Assembly (NCBI RefSeq): GCF_013426975.1
Contig: NZ_JACCPY010000004.1
Coordinates: forward strand, 1 to 64,000
Length of the DNA: 64,000 nt
Source of the DNA: Sphaerotilus sulfidivorans
GTDB taxonomy: Bacteria > Pseudomonadota > Gammaproteobacteria > Burkholderiales > Burkholderiaceae_C
Direction: 5' to 3'
Below, one piece after another: positions 14,633-27,981 of this stretch. Position 1 is the stretch's first letter; every line of letters begins with the position of its first letter. The notes under the pieces were generated by a model, which saw only the letters and a program-made list of their open reading frames with translations, had not been told where the DNA came from and did not search any database. The position numbers and the translations under genes were made by a program.

Positions 14633-15457
14633 TCAGGCCCGCGCGGCGTCGAGCTGGTCGCGGGTGGCCATGGCCACGCGGCGGGCCGCTTCGGCGAAGT
14701 CCTCGCCACGGCTGGCATAGAGGACCGCGCGCGAGCTGTTGACGACGATGGTGCCCTGCGCGGTCAGGCCTGCGCGCACGGTGGCCTCGGCGTCGCCGCC
14801 CTGCGCGCCCACGCCCGGAATCAGCAGCGGCAGCGTCGGCGCGATCTCGCGCACCCGCGCGATCTCGGCGGGGAAGGTGGCGCCCACCACCAGGCCGATC
14901 TGGCCGGTGGCGTTCCACTCGGTCTGCGCCAGGTGCGCCAGGTGCTCGAACAGCCGCGGCTGGCCGGGAACGTCGGCCAGGCGCTGCATCTGCCAGTCGT
15001 TGCCGCCGGGGTTGGAGGTGCGGCACAGCAGGATCACGCCCTTGTCCGCGTAGGCCAGGAAGGGGTCGATCGTGTCGCGGCCCATGAAGGGCGACAGCGT
15101 CACCGCGTCGGCCTGGTAGCGCACGAAGGCCTCGCGGGCGTACTGCTCGGCGGTCGAGCCGATGTCGCCGCGCTTGGCGTCCAGGATGACCGGCACGTCG
15201 GGCGCGACCGCCTTCATGTGCGCCATCAGCCGCTCGAGCTGGTCCTCGGCGCGGTGCGCGGCGAAGTAGGCGATCTGCGGCTTGAAGGCGCAGACCAGAT
15301 CCTTCGTCGCGTCGACGATCGCCGCGCAGAAGTCGAAGATCCTCGAGGCGTCGCCGGCCCAGGCGCCGGGAAACTTCGACGGCTCCGGATCGAGGCCGAC
15401 GCACAGCAGGGACTGGTTCTGGCGCGTGGCGCGGGCGAGCTGGTCGGTGAAGGTCAT
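14633..15457 (-). CDS. pyrF: Orotidine-5'-phosphate decarboxylase (type 2)
   Basis: Catalyses decarboxylation of OMP to UMP, the last step of de novo UMP synthesis. The 274-residue length and N-terminus ([14 protein letters not shown]) mark the longer type 2 subfamily. The catalytic array D-x-K-x-x-D is visible as [16 protein letters not shown], with Asp93, Lys95 and Asp98, and NPGGND plus VGATFP phosphate-binding segments follow. It is transcribed after purB with a 23-base gap, so two nucleotide-biosynthesis genes probably share a transcript. Confidence 0.95.
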
Positions 15458-15480
15458 CGCGGGACTCCGGCAGCCGGGGG

Positions 15481-16878
<1,398 letters not shown>

Positions 16879-16990: not shown

Positions 16991-17887
16991 TCAGCGCGAG
17001 CGATCGAGCGGCAGCCAGCGCGACAGCACCGGCCAGGCCACCGCGACGGTGGCGCTGAAATCCTCGAAGACCAGTCCGAGCAGCAGCGAGGCCGGCTCCT
17101 GGCGGGCCAGCGTGCGCAGGCCCTGGCGGCGCTGCACCTGCTGGAGTTCGCGGCACAGGGTGTCGAGCAGCGCCGGCGCAGCCTCGCCCGCCGGGCCGAG
17201 CCGGTCGTCGGTGATGACGATGGTGCCGCCGGGCAGGCCGAAGGCGCTGGGCGCGCCGAGCTGGCCGCGGGCGCGGAACTGCGCCTCCCACGGCGAGGAC
17301 GCCGCCGCGGGGCAGTGGCCGGCGGCCTGCTTTTCCAGCCGCCTGCGCAGGTCTTGCTGCTGCGTCGCTGGCAACTGGCTGGGCTGCAGCCAGCCCTGGT
17401 CGAGCCGGCTGAGCATTTCGCGGCCGATGTGGCGGTCGATCTGCGCCGGCACCCGGTCGACCAGGCGCTCGGCCGTGGCAGGGAGGGCCAGCCAGGCCAT
17501 CAGCATCGCGATCAGCGCCAGCGCGGCCTGGCGGCGGCGCCGCCCTCTGGGACGCTCGACGATCTGGGGCAGGGCGAGCCACTGTTCGAGCCGCGCATCG
17601 GTGGGACAGTCGAGCATCGCGCCGTCAGGCAGCGTCAGCAGCATCCGGCCGGAGCTGCTGCGGTGGCCGATCCGGACCTGCGCGGCGGCCGGGCGCTCGG
17701 AAAAGCCCTGGCCGGCGATCTGCAGTGCACCGCCCTCCAGGCTCAGCGTGACCGGCTGCGGCGCGCGGGTGGCGCTGCCGAAGTAGTCGCCCTGCAGGCG
17801 CCAGTCGCTGCTGTCCTGCCGGCCGCCGTCCTGATGTTGCCGGCCTGCGGCCCGGAAGGCTCCGGTGCCCGCATGTGTCACGCCCAT
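16991..17887 (-). CDS. Degenerate M48-type peptidase paralogue (zinc site lost)
   Basis: 298-residue membrane protein that aligns along its length with the intact M48 peptidase encoded at 19210-20292. Shared blocks include an N-terminal beta-rich domain with LTLPDGAMLDC, one membrane helix (residues 120-138), and SAFGLPGGTIVITDDRL. At the position of the HEAGH zinc motif it reads CRELQQVQRRQG (residues 245-256): both histidines are replaced (Arg246, Gln250) and only the glutamate stays. The region that should supply the third ligand (E-x-x-A-D) is missing and the protein ends early. It should be catalytically dead but may still bind a partner. It is the distal half of a duplicated DUF898-M48 unit, 96 bases after the second DUF898 gene. 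Confidence 0.8.
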   Translation of the reverse strand: MGVTHAGTGAFRAAGRQHQDGGRQDSSDWRLQGDYFGSATRAPQPVTLSLEGGALQIAGQGFSERPAAAQVRIGHRSSSGRMLLTLPDGAMLDCPTDARLEQWLALPQIVERPRGRRRRQAALALIAMLMAWLALPATAERLVDRVPAQIDRHIGREMLSRLDQGWLQPSQLPATQQQDLRRRLEKQAAGHCPAAASSPWEAQFRARGQLGAPSAFGLPGGTIVITDDRLGPAGEAAPALLDTLCRELQQVQRRQGLRTLARQEPASLLLGLVFEDFSATVAVAWPVLSRWLPLDRSR

Positions 17888-17983
17888 CCTGTTCTCCCCG
17901 TCGATGGAAGACCCGCCATCATCGACATCACTCTAGCCGCCGCAGGGCGCGCTGGCAGTCCCCAGGAGGGTGGATGGATTGTT

Positions 17984-19093
17984 TCAATTCGTCCCGGGCA
18001 GACGGCTCAGGGTGATCGACTCCAGGCGCAGCCGGGTGGTGGCGACCACCGCATGCGGCCAGTACAGTCCCAGCGTCAGCACGCACAGCAGCAGGTTCTT
18101 CAGCGACAGCAGCAGCAGGCGCGACAGCGGCAGATGGCAGGCGAAGCGGTACTGCGGGCTGAGGGTGTGGTTCCACAGCAGCGTCTGGGTGCCGGCGACC
18201 AGCCAGGCGCGCAGCGCCAGCAGCAGCATCATGTCCAGCAGCAGGCCGGTGAGCATCGGCGCGGCGGCCAGCAGGGTGTCGATCCAGGTCGCGAACAGCA
18301 GGTTGACCAGCAGCGCCCCGGCCAGCCCGGCCAGCACCCCGCCGTGCAGGCGGTAGAAGTGGCGGGGCTCGACGCTGGCGTCAAGCCGGGTGCGCTCGGC
18401 CTGCGCTGCCGGGCCGGTGCCCGCGTCTGCCCCTGCGCCCGCGTCTGCGCTCAGGCCGAAATTCGCATGGCGATAGCGGCTGTGCCGGGCATGCAGCCAC
18501 GGCAGCAGCGCCAGCAGTGCCAGCAGCGCCAGGCTGACCAGCGCCGGCACCAGCCAGCCGCCGCCGTCATCGAATTCGGCCTGCGGTCCGGCCAGCAGGG
18601 CCTGGCCGACCAGCAGCACCGCCAGTGGCGCGGCCGCGGGCAGGAAGACCGCCCGTGCGCCGGCCGCATCGCCGTGAAAGGCCAGGCGCCGGCCCCGCCA
18701 GCGGGTGTGCTCCAGCCGCCAGCGCAGCGAGCGCATCATCAGCGTCGGCCAGAACGGCAGCGCGGCCAGCAGCAGCAGCGCCGCGCCCAGCGGCATCTCA
18801 TGGGCGATCAAGATGTAGAGCAGCAGCACCGCGCACAGCAGCAGGTGAGGGCGCAGCATCTCGCGGCCGTCGCCGTCGAAGTCGAGCGCCTCGCCATCGA
18901 CCTGCGTGTGCTGGCGAAAGAAGCGCAGCCGGTGCGCCCGCGCAAAAGGCAGGTAGAGCCCGAGCGTGATCAGCGTCAGGCCCAGGTTGCGCAGCCACAG
19001 CCGGGCATAGTCCCGCCCGGAGGCGGTGAAGCGGATCGGCAGCGTCTGCCCGGTGCCCGTGTGGTGCTGGTCTGGATCGGATGTGTTGGTCAT
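17984..19093 (-). CDS. DUF898 (YjgN-like) membrane protein, copy 2
   Basis: 369-residue polytopic membrane protein. It opens with LPIRFTASGRDYARLWLRNLGLT, the standard DUF898 start, followed by TLGLYLPFARAHRLRFFRQHT and repeated hydrophobic helices; the last part repeats the motif (LLCVLTLGLYWPHAVVATTR). DUF898 proteins such as E. coli YjgN have no known biochemical role. It is paralogous to the gene at 20279-21412 and lies between the intact and degenerate M48 genes, so it is half of a tandemly duplicated DUF898-M48 unit. It starts 116 bases after the upstream M48 gene. Confidence 0.88.
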   Translation of the reverse strand: MTNTSDPDQHHTGTGQTLPIRFTASGRDYARLWLRNLGLTLITLGLYLPFARAHRLRFFRQHTQVDGEALDFDGDGREMLRPHLLLCAVLLLYILIAHEMPLGAALLLLAALPFWPTLMMRSLRWRLEHTRWRGRRLAFHGDAAGARAVFLPAAAPLAVLLVGQALLAGPQAEFDDGGGWLVPALVSLALLALLALLPWLHARHSRYRHANFGLSADAGAGADAGTGPAAQAERTRLDASVEPRHFYRLHGGVLAGLAGALLVNLLFATWIDTLLAAAPMLTGLLLDMMLLLALRAWLVAGTQTLLWNHTLSPQYRFACHLPLSRLLLLSLKNLLLCVLTLGLYWPHAVVATTRLRLESITLSRLPGTN

Positions 19094-19209
19094 GTGCGCA
19101 GGCCCCCCCGGCGGTGCCGGGCCGCTTTATAAACAAATCCGCAGCGGGTCTGGTGGGAACCTGAAGGCCGGAGCGTCGAAAAGCGTTCGCCGGCGTGCTG
19201 CAGCGCGCA

Positions 19210-20292
19210 TCAGCGCGCGTCCGCGGCCTGCTGGAAGCGGGCGATGCGCTCGGCATCGGCCGGATGGCTGGCCAGCGCGATCGGCGGCGCGTTGTCGCGG
19301 CCCGTGCCGTCCGGGCCGGCCAGGCGCTCGAACAGCGTGACCATGACGGCCGGCGACAGACCGGCGGCGCGCAGCAGCACGATGGCCTCGTCGTCGGCCT
19401 CGCGCTCGGCCTCGCGCGAGTAGGCCAGCTGGCCCAGCAGCAGCGGGATCTGGCCCGCCAGGCTGCCGAAGTCGCCGAAGAGCACGCTGCTGGCCGCGCC
19501 CAGCAGCGTGGCCTGCACCAGCAGCCGCATGCCGTGGCGGTGGCGCACATGGCCCGCCTCGTGCGCGAGCACGCCCAGCAGCACATCCTCGCGGTCGTGC
19601 AGCAGCTCGACCAGCGCATCGGTCACCAGGATCGTGCCTCCGGGCAGGGCCAGCGCGTTCGGGCCGAGTTCGGCCTGCTCGCGGCTGCGGCACAGCCGCA
19701 CCTGCACCGGCACCGGCGCAGGTCCGCCCTGATCGGCGCGCTGCTGCTGCGCCCGGGTCAGCGCCTCGCCGAGCCGCTGCGCAGTGGTGTCCGGCAGGCG
19801 GCTGGGCTCGCACCAGTGCTGGTCGATCTCGGCCAGCGTCGCCTGGCCGATCGAGGCATCGACCGATTCCGGCAGCAGCACCAGCACGCCGCGCGCCAGC
19901 AGCGGCAGGCCCAGCGCATGCATCAGCCCGAGCGCCAGCACGCAGGCCAGCAGCGCCAGGGCGGTGGCGCGCCAGCTCTGCTGCAGCCGCTCGATCCATG
20001 GCCGACCGCCCGGGCGCTGCAGCGCCCACCGGTCCCAGGCGGCGCCCTGGTGGCAGTGCAGCTGGCCGCCGTCGGGCAGGTGCAGCAGCCGAGGGCCGTG
20101 GCGCTGGTGTTCGGGCCAGTCCAGGCGGTCGGCCGCATGCTCGCCGATGAGCTGGCCGCTGCTGCTGTCGAGAATGCGCAGGCGCAGGCCGTCCGGGGCC
20201 TGCACCAGCACCAGGCTGACCGACCGGGCGGCCGCGCTGCGGCCGTCGAAATGCGCGACCGGCGCGGCCAGCGGGCGCTCAGAAGGCGACAT
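19210..20292 (-). CDS. M48 family zinc metallopeptidase, membrane-anchored
   Basis: 360-residue integral-membrane peptidase. An N-terminal domain of about 105 residues precedes one long hydrophobic segment (residues 109-140, ALALLACVLALGLMHALG). The catalytic domain has the zinc motif VLAHEAGHVRHRHGM with His244, Glu245 and His248, and a likely third ligand in REAEREADDEA near residue 300. ALPGGTILVTDALVELL is also typical of M48. The ATG at 20292 overlaps the end of the upstream DUF898 gene by 14 bases, implying translational coupling. The pair suggests membrane-protein quality control or processing of a DUF898-linked substrate; that is inference. Confidence 0.9.
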   Translation of the reverse strand: MSPSERPLAAPVAHFDGRSAAARSVSLVLVQAPDGLRLRILDSSSGQLIGEHAADRLDWPEHQRHGPRLLHLPDGGQLHCHQGAAWDRWALQRPGGRPWIERLQQSWRATALALLACVLALGLMHALGLPLLARGVLVLLPESVDASIGQATLAEIDQHWCEPSRLPDTTAQRLGEALTRAQQQRADQGGPAPVPVQVRLCRSREQAELGPNALALPGGTILVTDALVELLHDREDVLLGVLAHEAGHVRHRHGMRLLVQATLLGAASSVLFGDFGSLAGQIPLLLGQLAYSREAEREADDEAIVLLRAAGLSPAVMVTLFERLAGPDGTGRDNAPPIALASHPADAERIARFQQAADAR

Positions 20293-21412
20293 CGATCCCC
20301 AGCAGGTCGTCGGCGGCCTCGCCGATGGCGCCGGGCTCGCGGGTCGCCGGCGTGCCGAGGAAATGCTCGACCGGGCAGTCGGTGGTGATCGACATCGCCT
20401 CGAGCTTCATGCGTGCGGCCGCCACCGCGGCGAACGGCCAGTACAGGCCCAGCGTCAGGCCGGTCAGCATCGCGTTCTTCAGCAGCAGGCCCCACAGCGC
20501 GCTGAACGAGAGCTGGCTGGCGAAGCTCAGATGCCGGCTGCGCACATGGTTCCAGAGCAGGTTCTGCATCCGGGCGCCGGAATAGGCCATCATCAGCGTG
20601 ACCAGCGCCAGATAGGCCAGCGGTCCGAGCACGAACATCGCCGGCGGCAGCACCATCGACACCGCCATGCTGAGCAGCCCGATGCCCAGGCCGGCGGCGA
20701 TCATCAGCAGCATCGACTTGGCGCCGAGCTTCCAGAGGTCGCGCACCCGCACGCCCTCCAGCCGGCTCTGCTCGCCGGCGAAGGTGCAGTGGTCGAGGCG
20801 GTAGCGCATCAGCCGCAGCAGGATCCAGGGGCCGCAGGCATAGAGGCCGAGCATCGCCGTCAGGAAGAGGCCGATCAGCCAGACCGGCGGGGCGGTCAGC
20901 TCGCCCTCCGCCGGGGCGTCCGGCGCCAGGATCGGGCTCAGCGCCAGCACCGTGCCCAGCAGCACGATCAGCGGCAGGAAGACCCGGTAGGCCTCGGCGA
21001 CCGTGCCGACAAAGCCGAAGCGCAGCCCGCGCCAGCTGGTCTGGCCGAGCCGGAAGCGCAGCGCCGAGCACAGCAGCCAGGGCCAGGCCAGCGTGCCCAG
21101 CAGCGCGGCGCCGACCGCCAGCAGCGGCGCGAACTGGCTGCCCACCAGATAGATCAGCAGGGCCGCGCCGACGATCAGATAGCCGCGCAGCATCTTCCAC
21201 GGGTCGCCGTGAAAGGCCAGCGGCGCGCCGTCGATCAGCGTGTTCTCGTGGAAGTAGCGCAGCTGCCGGGCCCGGGCGAAGGGCAGATAGAGCCCCAGCG
21301 TCACCACGGTCAGCAGCAGGTTGACCACCCAGATGCGGAAGTACTCGCTGCCCGAGGCGGTGAAGCGCAGCGGCAGCACGCGCGAAGACTGGCCGATGTC
21401 CGGTTCCGTCAT
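20279..21412 (-). CDS. DUF898 (YjgN-like) membrane protein, copy 1
   Basis: 377-residue multi-pass membrane protein. The N-terminal block LPLRFTASGSEYFRIWVVN and TLGLYLPFARARQLRYFHEN define DUF898, and the same motif recurs near the C-terminus (GLTLGLYWPFAAVAAARMK), as in other family members. It is preceded by GGGAGGGAG, a strong ribosome-binding site, and by a TATAAA box on the minus strand. It is the first gene of the minus-strand run DUF898-M48-DUF898-M48(dead), and is divergent from the SPFH operon with a 133-base shared control region. Function unknown. Confidence 0.9.
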   Translation of the reverse strand: MTEPDIGQSSRVLPLRFTASGSEYFRIWVVNLLLTVVTLGLYLPFARARQLRYFHENTLIDGAPLAFHGDPWKMLRGYLIVGAALLIYLVGSQFAPLLAVGAALLGTLAWPWLLCSALRFRLGQTSWRGLRFGFVGTVAEAYRVFLPLIVLLGTVLALSPILAPDAPAEGELTAPPVWLIGLFLTAMLGLYACGPWILLRLMRYRLDHCTFAGEQSRLEGVRVRDLWKLGAKSMLLMIAAGLGIGLLSMAVSMVLPPAMFVLGPLAYLALVTLMMAYSGARMQNLLWNHVRSRHLSFASQLSFSALWGLLLKNAMLTGLTLGLYWPFAAVAAARMKLEAMSITTDCPVEHFLGTPATREPGAIGEAADDLLGIDVAF

Positions 21413-21450
21413 GGATCGCTCCCTCCCTGATGCAGGCTCAGGTTTTTCAC

Positions 21451-21456
21451 TTTATA
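21451..21456 (-). promoter_or_regulatory. Candidate -10 box for the DUF898-M48 genes in the divergent spacer
   Basis: On the minus strand the spacer between the two divergent operons contains TATAAA about 38 bases before the DUF898 start; the -35 position is poorly conserved (TCGTTT at 17 bases). On the plus strand a weaker TATGAT (21500-21505) lies ahead of the SPFH gene. The short shared region would allow co-regulation of both arms. Confidence 0.35.
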
Positions 21457-21545
21457 GCGCGCGCACCGGCCGCAAACGATGAATTTCCTGTTGGCTGCGT
21501 ATGATCCTGATCAGAACCTCTCCCCCTGTCCGTCCGGAGTGCGCC

Positions 21546-22589
21546 ATGTCGCTGTTCGATTTCATCCGCAAGCAGTTCATCGATGTCCTGGAGTGGACCG
21601 AGACCGGCGACGGCACGCTGGCCTGGCGCTTCCCGATGGCCGACAACGAGATCCAGAACGGCGCGTCGCTCACGGTGCGCGAGTCGCAGATGGCGGTCTT
21701 CGTCAACGAGGGCCAGGTGGCCGATGTCTTCGGCCCCGGCCTGCACCGGCTGACGACGCAGACGCTGCCGCTGCTGACCAACCTGAAGCACTGGGACAAG
21801 CTCTTTGCCTCGCCCTTCAAGAGCGATCTCTATTTCTTCAGCACCCGCCAGCAGGTCGATCAGCGCTGGGGCACGCAGCAGCCGGTGACGATCCGCGACC
21901 GGGACTTCGGCGCGGTGCGGCTGCGCGCCTTCGGCAACTTCGCGTGGCGGCTGGTCGATCCGCGCGCCTTCATGAAGGAGGTGTCGGGCACGCGCGAGCG
22001 CTACACCGCCGCCGAGATCGACGGCCAGCTGCGCGGCTTCCTGCTGCAGCACCTGTCGGACGCGGTGGCGCAGTCCGGCATTCCCTTCCTGGATCTGGCG
22101 GCCAACCAGGTCGAGTTCGCCGCGCGGCTCAAGGAGGTCACGGCGCCCGAGTTCGCCCGCCTGGGCCTGAGCCTGGAGACGGTGACGCTGCAGAACATCT
22201 CGCTGCCGGAGGAGCTGCAGAAGATTCTCGACCAGAAGATCGGCATGGGCATGATCGGTCAGAACATGGGCCAGTTCATGCAGTACCAGGCCGCGCAGGC
22301 CCTCCCGAAGTTCGCCGAGAACGCCGGCCAGGGCAGCGGCATCGCCGGCGACGCGATGGGTCTCGGGGCCGGCATGGCGCTGGGGCATACGATGGCGCAG
22401 GCGATGCAGCAAGGGCTTCAGCCCGCCGCTGCGGCCCCCCTGGCGCCGGCGGCCGCGCCGGTCGTCGCGCTCCAGCCCGACGAGATCATGGCCACGCTGG
22501 AGAAGCTCGCCGACCTGAAGGCCAAGGGCATCCTCACCGACGAGGAGTTCACCGCCAAGAAGACCGAGCTGCTGAAGAAGCTGGTCTGA
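21546..22589 (+). CDS. SPFH (stomatin/prohibitin-like) protein with C-terminal SHOCT domain
   Basis: 347-residue protein of the COG4260 'virion core protein-like' SPFH group. It begins MSLFDFIRKQFIDVLEW and continues with the SPFH fold (about residues 20-215: ESQMAVFVNEGQVADVFGPG, DFGAVRLRAFGNFAWRLVDP). An Ala/Gly/Met-rich linker follows, then a SHOCT motif at the end (LEKLADLKAKGILTDEEFTA). An in-frame ATG 45 bases further upstream is less likely. SPFH proteins form membrane-associated scaffolds. The GTG of the DUF4178 gene starts one base after its stop, so this is the first gene of a compact plus-strand operon of five. Confidence 0.88.
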   Translation: MSLFDFIRKQFIDVLEWTETGDGTLAWRFPMADNEIQNGASLTVRESQMAVFVNEGQVADVFGPGLHRLTTQTLPLLTNLKHWDKLFASPFKSDLYFFSTRQQVDQRWGTQQPVTIRDRDFGAVRLRAFGNFAWRLVDPRAFMKEVSGTRERYTAAEIDGQLRGFLLQHLSDAVAQSGIPFLDLAANQVEFAARLKEVTAPEFARLGLSLETVTLQNISLPEELQKILDQKIGMGMIGQNMGQFMQYQAAQALPKFAENAGQGSGIAGDAMGLGAGMALGHTMAQAMQQGLQPAAAAPLAPAAAPVVALQPDEIMATLEKLADLKAKGILTDEEFTAKKTELLKKLV

Positions 22590-22590
22590 G

Positions 22591-24219
22591 GTGGCCGAGA
22601 CCTACCGCGCCTATCGCGCGGCCTGCCCGAACTGCGGCGCGCCGGTCGAGTTCCGCTCGGCGGCCTCGGCCAGCGCGGTGTGCGGCTACTGCCGCTCGAC
22701 GCTGGTGCGCGAGGGCGAGGCGCTGCGCCGCATCGGCGAGAGCGCCGAGCTGTTCGACGACCACTCGCCGCTGCAGCTTGGTGTCACCGGGCGCTGGCAG
22801 GGCGTGGCCTTCACGCTGGTCGGGCGCCTCCAGTACGCCTATGCCGACGGCCGCTGGACCGAGTGGCATGCGCTGTTCGATGCCAGCGACCTCGGCCAGG
22901 GGCTGCGCAGCGCCTGGCTGTCGGAGGACAACGGCGCCTACGTGCTGGCGCTGGACCGGCCCCTGAACGACCGCGTGCCGCAGGCCGGCACGCTGTTTCC
23001 CGGCCAGAAGGCGCTGATCGACGGACGCGCCTGGGAGGTCGCCTCGGTGGTGCAGGCCCATGTGCATGCCGCCGAAGGCGAGCTGCCGCGCCCGCCGCAG
23101 CCCGCCGGGCCGGATCACGCCTTCGTGATCGCCGACCTGCGCAATGCCCAGGACGAGGTCGGCACGCTCGACTATGCCGAGCCGGCGCGGCCGCACTGGT
23201 CGGTCGGCCGCGCGGTGCGGCTGGCGGAGCTGCAGCTCGCCGGCCTGCGCGGCTTGGGCAGCGAGAAGACGCTGGCCGGCCGCAGCATCGACTGCCCGAG
23301 CTGCGGCGCCTCGCTGGAGATCCGGCTGGACAGCACCCGGTCGGTCACCTGCGGCCAGTGCCGTGCGGTGGTCGACGTGTCGCAGGGCGTCGGTGCCGAT
23401 CTGGCGCACTTCGCGCAGAACGCGGTCACCGAGCCGCAGATCCCGCTGGGCACGGTCGGCACGCTGGCGCTGGGCACGCCGCAGCCGCTGCCCTGGCAGG
23501 TGATCGGCTACCTGGAGCGCTGCGACCTGCCCGCGCCGGGCAGCGACGACGAGCAGACCTTCTGGCGCGAGTACCTGCTCTACCACCCGACCGAGGGCTT
23601 CGTCTTCCTGGTCGACACCGAGGAGGGCTGGAGCTGGGTGCGGCCGCTGACCGGCGTGCCGGTGGTGCAGGGCGACCGCGCGACCTGGGCCGGCGCCCGC
23701 CATGCCAGGCGCTGGCACTACCGCGCGAAGACGGTCCATGTGATCGGCGAGTTCTACTGGCGCCTCCGCCGCGACGAGCCGGTCGAGGTCACCGACTACG
23801 AAGGCGAGGGCCCGAACCGCCGCAGGCGCCTGAGCCGCGAGCAGACCACCGGCCCCGGCGGCGGCGAGATCACCTGGTCGGCCGGCGAGACGCTGGAGGC
23901 GCGCGCGGTGGCCCAGGCCTTCGGGCTGGACGCGCAGGCCGGTGCGGCGCTGCGGCGCGATGCCGCGCCGGTGGCGGCCGGCGCCAAGGGCAGCGGCCTG
24001 GGCTGCGCCGGTGTCATCATCCTGATCCTGCTGATCCTGTTCGTCGTGCTGCTGATCGCACGCTGCAGCGAGGATCGCTGCGACGAGATCCGCAGCACCT
24101 TCGGCCCGGCCAGCGCCGAATACCAGCAATGCCTGGCACGCCAGCGCACCTCGTCCGGCAGCGGCGCCTACGGCGGATCGTGGGGCAGCGGCGGTGGCGG
24201 GGGCGGCGGCCACAAGTAA
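22591..24219 (+). CDS. DUF4178 protein with two zinc ribbons and a C-terminal membrane helix
   Basis: 542-residue protein with a GTG start one base after the SPFH stop. Two treble-clef-like zinc ribbons are visible: CPNCGAPV...CGYC (residues 12-34) and CPSCGASLEI...CGQC (about 232-255). Each precedes a DUF4178 beta domain, with segments such as WTEWHALFDASDLGQGLRSA and TFWREYLLYHPTEGFVFLVD. Near residue 470 there is one strongly hydrophobic helix (GVIILILLILFVVLLIARCS), then a short tail rich in Gly and Ser. DUF4178 has no established activity; it recurs next to DUF350 and spermidine-synthase-like genes, as it does here. Confidence 0.87.
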   Translation: MAETYRAYRAACPNCGAPVEFRSAASASAVCGYCRSTLVREGEALRRIGESAELFDDHSPLQLGVTGRWQGVAFTLVGRLQYAYADGRWTEWHALFDASDLGQGLRSAWLSEDNGAYVLALDRPLNDRVPQAGTLFPGQKALIDGRAWEVASVVQAHVHAAEGELPRPPQPAGPDHAFVIADLRNAQDEVGTLDYAEPARPHWSVGRAVRLAELQLAGLRGLGSEKTLAGRSIDCPSCGASLEIRLDSTRSVTCGQCRAVVDVSQGVGADLAHFAQNAVTEPQIPLGTVGTLALGTPQPLPWQVIGYLERCDLPAPGSDDEQTFWREYLLYHPTEGFVFLVDTEEGWSWVRPLTGVPVVQGDRATWAGARHARRWHYRAKTVHVIGEFYWRLRRDEPVEVTDYEGEGPNRRRRLSREQTTGPGGGEITWSAGETLEARAVAQAFGLDAQAGAALRRDAAPVAAGAKGSGLGCAGVIILILLILFVVLLIARCSEDRCDEIRSTFGPASAEYQQCLARQRTSSGSGAYGGSWGSGGGGGGGHK

Positions 24220-24238
24220 GCTCAACCGGAGAGTCCCC

Positions 24239-24454
24239 ATGGAGATGCTCAAGCCCGCCGTGATCCTCGGCTCCATCCTCTACGCCCTCATCGGCGTGGC
24301 GGTGCTGTGGATCAGCTTCATCGTCATCGACAAGCTCACGCCCTACAAGCTCTGGGAGGAGATCGTCGAGCACAAGAACCTGGCGCTGGCCATCGTCGTC
24401 GGCGCGATGTTCATCGCGATCGGGCAGATCGTGGCGGCGGCCATTCACGGGTGA
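24239..24454 (+). CDS. Short DUF350 family membrane protein
   Basis: 71-residue protein with two membrane helices (AVILGSILYALIGVAVLWIS and LALAIVVGAMFIAIGQIVAA) separated by a charged loop (DKLTPYKLWEEIVEHKN). The pattern matches one repeat of DUF350, whose usual members are about twice as long with four helices, so this is a half-length form that may dimerise. GGAGAG precedes the ATG at 24239. Its stop overlaps the next start (GTGA), indicating coupling to the aminopropyltransferase-like gene. Confidence 0.82.
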   Translation: MEMLKPAVILGSILYALIGVAVLWISFIVIDKLTPYKLWEEIVEHKNLALAIVVGAMFIAIGQIVAAAIHG

Positions 24455-26037
24455 GCGTGCCGGCCGACGCCCGCGCCGCGGCTGGCGCCGACGCGCGCAT
24501 CTCGCCCGCCGAGGTCACGCTGCTGGCCTCGGTCTTCCTGATCGCCGCCTGCGGGCTGGTCTACGAGCTGGCGGCGGGTGCGCTGGCGAGCTATCTGCTC
24601 GGCGATTCGGTGCTGCAGTTCTCCACCGTCATCGGCGCCTACCTGTTCGCGATGGGCATCGGCTCGTGGCTGAGCCGCTTCGTCGAGCGCCAGCTGGTGG
24701 CGCAGTTCCTCGGCATCGAGCTGCTGGTCGGGCTGGTCGGCGGGCTGATGCCGGCCGGGCTGTTCGTCGCGCACAACCTGCTGCCGAGCGGCGCCGACAC
24801 CGCCTTTCGCACGCTGCTGTACGGGCTGGTCCTGCTGGTGGGCGCGCTGGTCGGGCTGGAGATCCCGCTGGTGATGCGCATCCTCAAGCGCCAGTTCAGC
24901 CAGCGCTATGCGCTGAAGGATCTGGTGTCGCAGGTGCTGACCTTCGACTACCTGGGCGCGCTGGCGGTGGCGCTGGCGTTTCCGCTGCTGCTGGTGCCGC
25001 ATCTGGGGCTGATCCGCACCGGGCTGGTGTTCGGGCTGATGAACGCGGGCGTGGCGGTGTGGGCGCTGTGGCTGTTCCGGGGCGAGCTGCGTCGCGTGCG
25101 GCTGCTGGCGCTGGCCTGCGCCGGCGTGATCGGGCTGCTGCTGCTGGCGCTGGCCGGATCGGAGCGGTTGACCGCCTGGGCCGAGGACCGCTTCTACGGC
25201 GACCGCATCCTGCACGCCTCGTCGAGCGACTACCAGCGCATCGTCGTGACCGGCGGGCGAGCGGGCATCCGGCTCTTCCTCAACGGCAACCTGCAGTTCC
25301 ATGCCCGCGACGAGTACCGCTACCACGAGGCGCTGGTGCATCCGGCGATGGCCGCGCACGGCGCGCCGCGCCGGGTGCTGGTGCTGGGCGGCGGCGACGG
25401 GCTGGCGGTGCGCGAGGTGCTGAAATATCCCTCGGTCGAGCAGGTCACGCTGGTCGAGCTGGATCCGCAGATGACGCGGCTGTTCTCGACCGAGCCGAGG
25501 CTGGTCGAACTCAATGCCGCCGCGCTGCGCTCGCCGAAGGTCACGGTGGTCCATGCCGACGCCTTCACCTGGCTGGAGTCGCAGCGCGATGCCGGGGCGG
25601 TCTGGGATGTGGTGGTGATCGACTTTCCCGATCCGAGCAACTTCTCGCTCGGCAAGCTCTACTCGACGAGCTTCTATCAGATCGTCGACCAGCATCTGGC
25701 CGCCGACGGCTTCATGGTGGTGCAGACCACCTCGCCGCTGGTGGCGCGGCGCAGCTTCTGGACGGTGGCGGCGACGCTGGAGACGGTCGGCCTGACGACG
25801 ATGCCCTACCACGCGCTGGTGCCGAGCTTCGGCGAGTGGGGCTTCATCGTCGCCGGCCGGCGGCCGTGGCGGGCACCGACGGTGCTGCCGGCGGGGCTGC
25901 GTTTCCTGACGCCCGAGGGGATGGCCACGCTGCGCCATTTCCCGCCCGACATGGCGCGCACCGAAGAGGCGCCGAACCGCCTGTCCGACCAGCGTCTGGT
26001 GCGGCTCTTCGAGCAGGAATGGGGGGCGCCGCATTGA
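24451..26037 (+). CDS. Membrane-embedded spermidine-synthase-like aminopropyltransferase
   Basis: 528-residue protein starting with a GTG that overlaps the DUF350 stop. Residues about 15-250 hold roughly seven membrane helices (for example LLASVFLIAACGLVYELAAG and LGIELLVGLVGGLMPAGLFV). The C-terminal half is a spermidine-synthase fold: LNGNLQFHARDEYRYHE, then the dcSAM-binding VLVLGGGDGLAVREV (near 310-322) and VELDPQM. The active-site loop reads VIDFPDPSNFSLGKLYS (near 389-405), so the two aspartates of the usual D-x-T-D-P motif are kept although the middle differs. Chemistry is probably transfer of an aminopropyl group from decarboxylated SAM, supplied by the adjacent speD. The acceptor is unknown and could be a membrane component. 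Confidence 0.87.
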   Translation: MSVPADARAAAGADARISPAEVTLLASVFLIAACGLVYELAAGALASYLLGDSVLQFSTVIGAYLFAMGIGSWLSRFVERQLVAQFLGIELLVGLVGGLMPAGLFVAHNLLPSGADTAFRTLLYGLVLLVGALVGLEIPLVMRILKRQFSQRYALKDLVSQVLTFDYLGALAVALAFPLLLVPHLGLIRTGLVFGLMNAGVAVWALWLFRGELRRVRLLALACAGVIGLLLLALAGSERLTAWAEDRFYGDRILHASSSDYQRIVVTGGRAGIRLFLNGNLQFHARDEYRYHEALVHPAMAAHGAPRRVLVLGGGDGLAVREVLKYPSVEQVTLVELDPQMTRLFSTEPRLVELNAAALRSPKVTVVHADAFTWLESQRDAGAVWDVVVIDFPDPSNFSLGKLYSTSFYQIVDQHLAADGFMVVQTTSPLVARRSFWTVAATLETVGLTTMPYHALVPSFGEWGFIVAGRRPWRAPTVLPAGLRFLTPEGMATLRHFPPDMARTEEAPNRLSDQRLVRLFEQEWGAPH

Positions 26038-27641
26038 GGCGCCGCGAGCTGCTGGCCGGGCTGGCTGCGGTGGCCGGATCCGGTCTGGCCGGCTGCGACG
26101 CCGCGCTGCCGGCGCTGGACGGCGGCTGGATCGGTGCGGACCCGGCCGCGCGCGGCCACCGGCTGCGCGAGATCGGCGGCGCCAGGTCCGGTGCACTGCC
26201 GGCGCCCGCCCTCACGCGGCGGGCCGCGGTGCTGGTGGTGGGCGCGGGCATCGCCGGGCTGGCGGCGGCGCGTGCGATCGAGCGCGCCGGCATCGACGAC
26301 GTGCACCTGATCGAGCTGGAGGACGAGGCGGGCGGTCATTCGCGCGGCCATCGGCTGGCGGGCTTCGACTGTCCGCTCGGCGCGCATTACCTGCCGGTGC
26401 CGGGCGCAGCGGCGGCCGAGGTGCGCGAGCTGCTGCAGGACTTCGGCCTGGCGCAGGTGGCGCACGGCCGCTGGCACTGGGACGAGCGCCACCTGTGCCA
26501 CGCGCCGCAGGAGCGGCTCTTCATCGACGGCGAATGGCACGAGGGCCTGCTGCCGCCGGCCGAGCCCGGCAGTCGCCTGCTGGCGCAGTACCGTAGCTTT
26601 GCCCGTCGGGTCGCCGAGGCGCAGCGGCAGGTCGGCTTCTCGATGCCGGCGCTGCGCACGCCGTGGACGCCCGCGCAGGCCGCGCTGGAGTCGCAGACCT
26701 TCGCCGCCTGGCTGGATGCGCACGGACTCGACGAGCCCGCCCTGCGCTGGTACCTCGACTACAGCTGCCGCGACGACTACGGCGCCGATGCCGCGACCGT
26801 CTCGGCCTGGGCCGGGCTGCACTATTTCGCCAGTCGCCACGGTTTCCATGCGCCGGGCGATGCGGATGCCGAGCGTGAGCCCGTGCTCACCTGGCCCGAG
26901 GGCAATGCCTGGCTGGCACGGCGGCTGGCGACGCCCTTCGCGGCCGGGCGGCTGCACACCGGCCGGGTCGCGCTGCGGCTGGACGAGGAGCGCGAGGGCG
27001 TGCAGCTGCGGGTCTGGGATGCGCGAGCCGATCGTCTCGAGGCCTGGCGGGCCGGGCGGGTGGTGCTGGCGCTGCCGCTGCATGTCGCGGCGCGGCTGTG
27101 GCCTGATGCGCCCGAGGCGCTCCGACAGACGGCGGCGCAGGCCCGCCACGCGCCGTGGCTGGTGGCGAACCTGCATCTCGACGCGCCGCTGCTGCAGCGC
27201 GTCGGCGCGCCGCCCGCCTGGGACAGCGTCGCCTTCGGCACCGCCTCGCTCGGCTATGTCGACGCGATGCACCAGTCGATGCGCTCGCATGCCGGCCCGA
27301 CCGTGCTGACCGCCTACCTGCCGCTGTCCCCGGCCGAGCGGCCGGCGCTGCTGGGTGCGGACTGGCGCCCGTGGGCGCAGCGGGTGCTGGCCGACCTGCT
27401 GCCGCTGCACCCTGACCTGCCCGACCGGCTGCGCCGCATCGAGCTGGCTCGCCACGGTCATGCGATGCGCATTCCGCTGCCTGGCACGCGCTCGGCGCCA
27501 GCGCACCAGGCGCTGGCCCGGCTGTCGGGCCGGGTCGCGCTGGCACATGGCGATCTGGCGGGCTACTCGGTCTTCGAGGAGGCCTTCACGCTGGGCTCGC
27601 TGGCGGGACAGCGGGTGGCCGACCGAGCGCGCCGCGCATGA
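26034..27641 (+). CDS. Tat-exported FAD-dependent amine-oxidase-like protein (possible lipoprotein)
   Basis: 535-residue flavoprotein. The only good start is a TTG whose last two bases form the stop of the upstream gene (TTGA overlap); it gives RRRELLAGLAAVAGSGLAGC, a twin-arginine signal ending in a lipobox-like LAGC. The dinucleotide-binding motif VLVVGAGIAGLAAARAIERA (near residues 64-83) is followed by LIELEDEAGGHSRGH, the usual FAD-ribose glutamate region of NAD(P)-binding_8/amine-oxidase proteins. The C-terminal LARLSGRVALAHGDLAGYSV contains the FAD-closing segment. As the last gene of the SPFH-DUF4178-DUF350-SpeE-like operon, it may oxidise an amine made by the preceding enzyme; that is inference. 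It overlaps convergent speD by 56 bases. Confidence 0.82.
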   Translation: MRRRELLAGLAAVAGSGLAGCDAALPALDGGWIGADPAARGHRLREIGGARSGALPAPALTRRAAVLVVGAGIAGLAAARAIERAGIDDVHLIELEDEAGGHSRGHRLAGFDCPLGAHYLPVPGAAAAEVRELLQDFGLAQVAHGRWHWDERHLCHAPQERLFIDGEWHEGLLPPAEPGSRLLAQYRSFARRVAEAQRQVGFSMPALRTPWTPAQAALESQTFAAWLDAHGLDEPALRWYLDYSCRDDYGADAATVSAWAGLHYFASRHGFHAPGDADAEREPVLTWPEGNAWLARRLATPFAAGRLHTGRVALRLDEEREGVQLRVWDARADRLEAWRAGRVVLALPLHVAARLWPDAPEALRQTAAQARHAPWLVANLHLDAPLLQRVGAPPAWDSVAFGTASLGYVDAMHQSMRSHAGPTVLTAYLPLSPAERPALLGADWRPWAQRVLADLLPLHPDLPDRLRRIELARHGHAMRIPLPGTRSAPAHQALARLSGRVALAHGDLAGYSVFEEAFTLGSLAGQRVADRARRA

Positions 27642-27981
27642 TCTCGCGCTCCTCGACGCGGGCCGGGCTCAGCATCGCCCGCAGCGTGGCCAGCACCTGC
27701 CGCGCCTGCCGGGAGTGATCGCCCGAGCGGTTGCAGACATAGACATCGAGCGTCACCGCTGCCAGCTCCGGCCAGGTGTGCAGCGCCAGGTGCGACTCGG
27801 CCAGCAGCACCACGCCGGTCACGCCGCCGGGCTCGGGAAAGGCGTGGAAGACCTCGCCGACGACGCTCAGGCCCGCCTCGCGTGCGGCGCGCACGCCGGC
27901 CTCGCGCAGCGTGTCGCGATCGCGCAGCAGCGCCGTCGCGGCGCAGTCATGCCACTCGGCGCAGAGGTGAAGTCCGTCCAT
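27586..27981 (-). CDS. speD: S-adenosylmethionine decarboxylase proenzyme
   Basis: Pyruvoyl enzyme of 131 residues making decarboxylated SAM, the aminopropyl donor for spermidine-type synthesis. The self-cleavage motif LLAESHLALHTWPE is at residues 59-72, placing chain cleavage between Glu62 and Ser63, and TLDVYVCN supplies the conserved catalytic cysteine. This is the prokaryotic class 1B type. It is on the minus strand and its last 18 codons lie antisense to the end of the FAD-protein gene, including a proline/alanine tail (GRPPAVPPASPA). Proximity to the membrane aminopropyltransferase gene strongly suggests a shared pathway. Confidence 0.93.
   Translation of the reverse strand: MDGLHLCAEWHDCAATALLRDRDTLREAGVRAAREAGLSVVGEVFHAFPEPGGVTGVVLLAESHLALHTWPELAAVTLDVYVCNRSGDHSRQARQVLATLRAMLSPARVEEREIMRGALGRPPAVPPASPA

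Follow-up and report, generated by a model that had tools for sequence, protein, structure and literature searches.

Layout of the locus

We analyzed a 64,000 nucleotide stretch of the Sphaerotilus sulfidivorans genome (the window; host genome 4.39 Mb, completeness 99.95) that carries five plus-strand genes encoding, in order, an SPFH protein, a DUF4178 protein, a DUF350 membrane protein, a membrane-embedded SpeE-like aminopropyltransferase, and a flavin adenine dinucleotide (FAD) oxidoreductase. A convergent speD gene encodes a predicted S-adenosylmethionine (AdoMet) decarboxylase (AdoMetDC). The head-to-tail arrangement given in a preliminary description of this DNA was verified, as were the spacings: one base lies between the SPFH and DUF4178 genes and 19 bases between the DUF4178 and DUF350 genes, and four-base overlaps join DUF350 to the SpeE-like gene and the SpeE-like gene to the FAD gene. 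The overlap of 56 bases between speD and the FAD gene was also confirmed. This operon is real, conserved and of an already described type; the new element is evidence from sequence that aminopropyl transfer may occur outside the inner membrane, beside an exported flavin enzyme.

The SpeE-like protein (24451-26037, GTG start, 528 aa) scored 678 bits against the NCBIfam polyamine aminopropyltransferase model NF002956, for which the cut-off is 472. Hydropathy and topology analysis predicted seven transmembrane (TM) helices between residues 22 and 237 (about 24514-25161), and the transferase domain (residues 240-528, about 25168-26034) follows TM7. The FAD gene (26034-27641) encodes a protein of 535 aa that matches PF01593 (2e-19) and has a twin-arginine translocation (Tat) motif and a lipobox cysteine (LAGC); its start is a TTG codon, with an in-frame ATG at 26019 as an alternative. 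On the minus strand, speD (27586-27981, 131 aa) encodes a predicted class 1b AdoMetDC (TIGR03330, 1.4e-25).

Upstream, the gene at 21546-22589 encodes an SPFH protein of 347 aa (Band_7_1; PF13421, 1.4e-78) with a C-terminal SHOCT domain (PF09851, 9.3e-9) and a linker between the two that, by eye, looks rich in glycine. The DUF4178 protein (22591-24219, GTG start, 542 aa; PF13785, 1.3e-25) has CxxC pairs and, at its C-terminal end, a hydrophobic segment, both seen by eye, and in a Pfam search it matched zinc-ribbon models below the cut-off only. The DUF350 protein (24239-24454, 71 aa; PF03994, 1.7e-14) is half-size, covering positions 6-66 of a 133-position profile, with two hydrophobic segments by hydropathy.

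Conservation of the operon

The survey covered 60 genomes of relatives and a phylum sample of 249 genomes (each including the genome of S. sulfidivorans itself), the best 80 of at least 586 loci (the named loci), 56 of which are flanked by 8 kb or more on both sides, and 106 fetched neighbourhoods besides the window, some of them short. Among the relatives, a full-length SpeE-like gene was present in 26/60 genomes. DUF4178 matches fell in precisely these 26, and FAD matches with E <1e-20 in these 26 and in G028, where SpeE and FAD have both decayed to broken remains and neither DUF4178 nor SpeD was found. SpeD was present in 24 of the 26 and missing from G020 (65% complete) and G021 (89%). Four further genomes (G050, G053, G055 and G057) have SpeD without the SpeE-like gene, and in these a canonical SpeE adjoins SpeD. 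Co-occurrence of the SpeE-like gene and SpeD across the 60 genomes gave a Fisher p of 1.6e-10, uncorrected for kinship. Within the host genus, both were present in 7/13 genomes (own included) and neither in 6/13. The core genes of the operon come and go together across related genomes.

The same core recurs at the level of the gene neighbourhood, as the preliminary description had anticipated for relatives. Near the SpeE-like gene in the 56 named loci with long flanks we found FAD in 53, DUF350 in 52, DUF4178 in 51, SPFH in 48 and SpeD in 22, with SPFH, DUF4178, DUF350 and FAD all together in 46. SpeE and FAD matches were no more than 150 bases apart in 77/93 loci. SpeD was no more than 500 bases away from the FAD match at 20/37 loci and on the opposite strand at 33/37.

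Of the 86 loci with DUF350 and SpeE on one strand, 31 have the two matches separated by over 600 bases, three of them because DUF350 precedes SPFH. Inserts ahead of the SpeE-like gene, after DUF4178 or DUF350, were seen in nine loci (L036, L039, L040, L042, L043, L046, L049, L050 and L051); named by eye, they contain restriction-modification genes, PIN-domain toxins, an AAA-type ATPase and a PA2779/PA2778-like pair. The size of DUF350 also varies. The match is about 70 aa in the window, and about 128-132 aa and placed elsewhere in the cluster in L056, L057, L121, L161, L162 and L169; in distant loci it spans either about 70 aa (L202, L203, L206 and L208) or 250-290 aa.

Catalytic and acceptor sites of the SpeE-like protein

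We aligned the window protein with 49 of the 79 usable SpeE proteins from the named loci (near set; one of the 80 was skipped for a stop or N) and compared it with a far set of 20 of the 28 genomes of the phylum sample above the family cut-off. Those not used were the own genome, four from the same family, a further one from the same family that is L046, and G222 and G227. Twenty SpeE proteins, that of Escherichia coli among them, served as the canonical reference.

The GGGDG loop and the paired aspartates (DFPDP) noted earlier are present in the window protein, and D316 of the loop, D391 and D394, together with Tyr291 and Gln425, did not vary across the near (50/50) and far (20/20) sequences; G314 of the loop is alanine in 2/20 far sequences. 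With its GGGDG loop and D..DP motif, the protein belongs to the aminopropyltransferases (SpeE superfamily). It shares the donor site and catalytic aspartates of canonical SpeE from E. coli, Thermotoga maritima and Thermus thermophilus, and 25 distinct solved sequences match within residues 236-474. It differs from them in the seven TM helices in front and in the acceptor site. The position of E. coli Tyr226, a residue that presumably takes part in putrescine binding, as in structures of related enzymes, is Tyr in 20/20 canonical SpeE and Phe in 70/70 SpeE-like sequences. The position of E. coli Thr160 is Thr in 19/20 canonical SpeE and Pro in 70/70 SpeE-like sequences, and His454 is kept in 69/70, with no His there in canonical SpeE. 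The stretches around E. coli R253 and H269 are missing or altered in the near set. Trp463 was considered as a further new acceptor-site residue and rejected, as 10/20 canonical SpeE have Trp there too.

Because the donor and catalytic site is intact while the acceptor site is changed, the acceptor is probably other than putrescine. Judged by the putrescine-site Tyr, absent from all 70 sequences, the family would not count as spermidine synthases in the strict sense.

Pairing with SpeD

A class 1b AdoMetDC relies on Ser63, His68 and Cys83 (T. maritima numbering), according to the available part of PMC10407285, and these residues are present in the window SpeD. The motif ESHxxxH[TS]WPE..C occurs in 37/37 SpeDs close to the operons of relatives and in the window SpeD. 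Nine SpeDs that adjoin canonical SpeE share the identical motif with the operon-associated ones, and the sequences therefore lend no support to the idea that SpeD is a neofunctionalized ornithine or arginine decarboxylase.

In the phylum sample, 28/249 genomes have a SpeE-like gene above the family cut-off, and SpeD was found in 23 of these 28 versus 34 of the 221 others. A class 2 (eukaryotic-type) AdoMetDC (PF01536) occurred in 2/249 genomes (G272:C1:2555699-2556493 and G220:C12:443936-444721), both among the five SpeE-like genomes lacking SpeD; the chance of both falling there is 3e-4, for a pattern sought post hoc. In G066, a canonical SpeE lies elsewhere in the genome and the SpeD match is weak only. 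The analysis supports the earlier proposal that SpeD and the membrane SpeE-like protein would act as a pair at the membrane that depends on decarboxylated AdoMet (dcAdoMet).

A separate canonical speE paired with this speD would have spoken against the preliminary description. In the own genome, profile searches turned up a single PF02675 SpeD and no SpeE of the canonical kind. Apart from the SpeE-like protein, PF01564 matched a single orphan, which scores 30 bits and lacks the GGGDG loop, and we rejected it as a second SpeE. In this orphan (L002, G000:C75), LGLGAAA replaces GGGDG, and by eye it is probably no aminopropyltransferase. Two OKR-type decarboxylases (PF01276) are a potential source of putrescine; an alanine-racemase-fold ornithine decarboxylase was rejected, the single PF02784 match being read by eye as LysA.

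With the genome's only SpeD, its only full SpeE-like protein, two decarboxylases that could yield putrescine, and a SpeE-like protein whose core catalytic residues are kept, it is conceivable that SpeD and the SpeE-like protein simply make spermidine. We consider this improbable given the change from Tyr to Phe at the acceptor position throughout the family and the presence, in G016, G022, G027, G141 and G253, of an additional canonical SpeE beside SpeD. Two published observations also argue against it: in the accessible text of PMC12803844, which cites Li et al. 2019, bacterial spermidine synthase (SpdSyn) fusions are described as uninvolved in spermidine synthesis, and the betaproteobacterium Ralstonia pickettii is stated to produce putrescine and 2-hydroxyputrescine in the portion available of PMC7857480.

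Predicted side of the membrane

Ahead of the transferase domain lie seven hydrophobic segments, and the domain begins straight after the seventh. In the near set (50 sequences), Lys and Arg together average 9.0 in loops 2, 4 and 6 versus 0.14 in loops 1, 3 and 5; in the far set (20 sequences) the averages are 7.95 and 0.75. The bias towards loops 2, 4 and 6 runs the same way round in 70/70 sequences. A home-made dynamic-programming predictor returned seven TM helices with the N-terminus in and the C-terminus out for 68/70 sequences and the C-terminus out for 69/70. The C-terminal side was correct for 9/10 E. coli control proteins of known topology, and the C-terminus was out in 177/180 runs in which nine settings were applied to 20 of the 70 sequences. 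Because the loop charges in all 70 sequences fit a seven-TM protein with its N-terminus inside, the transferase domain is predicted to be periplasmic and may act there.

The catalytic domain is also poor in cysteine, with 0.84 per 1000 in the near set and 0.49 in the far set versus 10.6 in canonical SpeE and 7.45 among nine canonical SpeE from the same order. We do not take this as proof of export and demoted it after controls. The SPFH protein, which has no known export signal, has 0.15 per 1000 (73/77 without Cys), RplC was without Cys in 2/2, and the exported FAD protein has 11.5 per 1000 and is not depleted. With an SPFH protein that has just as little cysteine and an exported FAD protein that has no shortage of it, the low content of the transferase domain is weak support for a periplasmic location.

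Along with these controls, the limits of the topology analysis count against a periplasmic placement. Its inputs are charge and the hydropathy scored on a hydrophobicity scale, and its parity hinges on TM7. The predictor is crude: it missed the C-terminal side of uhpC, undercounted three transporters of 12 helices at 8, 11 and 8, and gave a near tie for kdpD with the N-terminal side wrong. The controls for the 180 runs were 7 of the 10 proteins, with 6 or 7 of 7 right, and left out three transporters including the failed uhpC.

The same chemistry could instead take place with a cytosolic transferase domain. dcAdoMet would meet the acceptor at the inner leaflet, with the product then flipped outwards to the FAD lipoprotein, an arrangement close to that of the preliminary description. 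SpeD and its product are cytosolic and the FAD lipoprotein lies across the membrane from them, as this arrangement expects, and every characterized SpeE is, to our knowledge, cytosolic. It would require an even number of TM helices or an inverted charge pattern, however, and the loop charges in 70/70 sequences together with the helix parity indicate an exterior C-terminus; the cysteine content of 0.84 per 1000 also stands against the 7.45 of canonical SpeE from the same order. We regard a cytosolic domain as rather unlikely, though as an alternative to be taken seriously.

The FAD enzyme

We aligned the window FAD protein with 41 of 64 FAD proteins of more than 420 aa. The Tat and lipobox residues are nearly invariant (R3 in 41/42, R4 in 40/42 and C21 in 41/42), PF01593 was found in 34/42 members and NAD_binding_8 in 42/42. 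Given the twin arginines and the lipobox cysteine, the FAD enzyme and the transferase domain would both lie in the periplasm. The earlier proposal that the enzyme sits across the membrane from the transferase does not agree with the topology analysis, which places both on the periplasmic side. An acidic residue at position +2, considered as a signal for retention of the oxidase in the inner membrane, is not general (Asp or Glu in 11/41 members with the lipobox cysteine) and was rejected.

Monoamine oxidases (MAO) and polyamine oxidases (PAO) have an active-site lysine. No column of our alignment has Lys in more than 31% of rows, which suggests that this lysine is not conserved in the FAD family; alignments to solved MAO end before it, and its absence is read from the lack of a conserved Lys column. 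Because there is no such column, "polyamine oxidase" is best used as a family label for a function that is predicted only. The family shares PF01593 and the FAD-binding motif with the flavin amine oxidases (MAO, PAO, LSD1 and putrescine oxidase) and HpnE, and differs from them as a Tat lipoprotein family without the conserved lysine.

Relation to described systems

The preliminary description regarded the acceptor and joint function as undescribed. This holds for the acceptor and function, which the literature consulted does not give, and does not hold for the operon type, which is in print in Ravi 2024 (PMC11237479); the core idea of the description was sound but not new. As far as the text available shows, Ravi 2024 (PMC11237479) describes operons of DUF350 with a seven-TM SpeE, including a variant in which band-7/SHOCT is joined by AdoMetDC and polyamine oxidase, with 2TM between band-7 and SHOCT. 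The variant and our locus share band-7 and SHOCT, DUF350, SpeE-7TM, DUF4178, AdoMetDC and an FAD enzyme of the polyamine oxidase type. In the window, the protein at 21546-22589 has band-7 and SHOCT in place of CesT/Tir-PspA, and DUF350, SpeE-7TM, AdoMetDC and polyamine oxidase are encoded together. Compared with the variant as set out in that text, the window has a half-size DUF350 (71 aa), a convergent SpeD and genus-local DUF898-M48 pairs. The same part of Ravi 2024 (PMC11237479) takes up neither membrane sidedness nor the oxidase being a Tat lipoprotein, and the accessible parts of the cited literature on SpeE fusions and SpeD, a scope outside which Li et al. 2019 falls, were likewise silent on sidedness.

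A major facilitator superfamily (MFS)-SpdSyn fusion with DUF350 has reportedly been studied by Li and colleagues, who are said to have found it paired with an active AdoMetDC, to have proposed an acceptor other than putrescine and to have noted a class 2 AdoMetDC. Our analysis differs in that the acceptor-site changes are counted by residue, the topology is analyzed and the pairing is counted over genomes. The available part of Ravi 2024 (PMC11237479) refers to this study (Li et al. 2019, Biochem J 476:2579).

In three distant loci (L204, L212 and L217), the DUF350-SpeE core is accompanied by PspA, and the FAD oxidase was not found by profile. CesT_Tir_1 and DUF4178 occur in L212, and DUF2170 with a sub-threshold DUF4178 match in L204. 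These loci match the second group of Ravi 2024 (CesT/Tir-PspA - DUF4178 - DUF350 - SpeE) as it appears in the accessible text, with PspA replacing SPFH-SHOCT. They raise the alternative of an envelope stress scaffold resembling the phage shock protein (PSP) system, in which the polyamine enzymes would merely sense or tune the polyamine level and no covalent modification of the envelope would occur. In the same text, Ravi 2024 (PMC11237479) proposes that PspA and membrane dynamics are linked to polyamines or aminopropylation, which together with PspA in these loci and the CesT/Tir-type proteins of L212 and L204 fits a stress scaffold. The frequent pairing of the SpeE-like protein with an AdoMetDC of either class suggests instead that catalysis is in use, and we hold the purely sensing role to be improbable.

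Neighbouring genes

Across a divergent gap of 133 bases (21412/21546), as originally described, the operon faces four minus-strand genes. These encode a DUF898 membrane protein (20279-21412; PF05987, 8.2e-86), a DUF7092 protein with an M48 metallopeptidase domain (19210-20292; PF01435, 1.2e-22), a second DUF898 protein (17984-19093; PF05987, 1e-53) and a DUF7092 protein with an M48-like remainder (16991-17887; PF23368, 2.1e-16). They had been described as two DUF898-M48 pairs. The first pair stands, its M48 domain carrying HEAGH; the 16991-17887 protein shares its N-terminal DUF7092 domain with 19210-20292 and has neither a Pfam M48 match nor HExxH, which was also absent from the matched stretch in 5/5 relatives of this protein. 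It resembles an M48 peptidase after loss of HExxH, next to an intact paralogue, and is possibly an inactive partner.

A quality-control role for M48 and DUF898 within the system was not borne out. Besides the window, DUF898 lies beside the operon in 2/106 fetched neighbourhoods (L035 and L037), and M48/DUF7092-type genes lie near it in 5/106, all within the host genus. A profile search found neither DUF898 nor M48/DUF7092-type genes near any of the 80 named loci, 56 of them with flanks of 8 kb or more on both sides, and on this ground we rejected the pairs as a component. The DUF898-M48 pairs are genus-local neighbours outside the conserved system. Further out, genes named by eye as pyrF/purB-like and as ribosomal protein genes (L3, L4 and L2) flank the locus (28182 onward; 14633-16857).

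Discussion

We propose that the operon encodes an envelope aminopropylation system, with a periplasmic SpeE-like transferase acting on an acceptor other than putrescine and an FAD lipoprotein on the same side of the membrane, and assign this reading a probability of about 0.5. From its family and motif, cytosolic SpeD would make dcAdoMet. With the transferase domain facing the periplasm, as the topology predicts, the helical domain must pass dcAdoMet or the aminopropyl group through the membrane. The residues of the SpeE-like protein suggest that it would then transfer the aminopropyl group to a non-putrescine acceptor. We would guess that the likeliest acceptor is an amine carried by some envelope component, for example the head group of an aminophospholipid. 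From its predicted location, the Tat-exported FAD lipoprotein may oxidize the product or a related amine on the same side. DUF350, DUF4178 and SPFH-SHOCT, by their position in the operon, could form a membrane scaffold, and in other lineages PspA and CesT/Tir occupy that position around the same DUF350-SpeE core. The odds seem to us about even that the family is an extracytoplasmic aminopropyltransferase of this kind, in which the seven-helix domain supplies dcAdoMet or its aminopropyl group to a periplasmic domain that tags an envelope component and the flavin lipoprotein acts on the tagged product. AT3 acyltransferases export acetyl groups, and we liken periplasmic aminopropyl transfer to this outward movement.

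Beyond the limits of the topology analysis, other observations tell against this proposal. We know of no periplasmic use of dcAdoMet. SpeD was inside the fetched stretch at only 22/56 named loci with long flanks, and no AdoMetDC of either class was found in five SpeE-like genomes, G096 (99% complete), G116 (100%), G227 (71%), G020 (65%) and G021 (89%). In three of the 24 relatives with both genes (G016, G022 and G027), the sole SpeD adjoins a canonical SpeE, so these pairings may serve the canonical enzyme.

One addition made here is both surprising and testable, namely the predicted periplasmic location of the transferase. If this location is correct, the search for the acceptor shifts from the cytosol to the envelope, where the mass signature to seek is +57.058 Da (C3H7N, calculated), and an assay that relies on complementing speE mutants in the cytosol would perform poorly. 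The split within the host genus, with the SpeE-like gene and SpeD both present in some genomes and both absent from others, offers a natural experiment. The gene set is widespread, and a periplasmic transferase would mean that its members make extracytoplasmic use of a donor derived from AdoMet.

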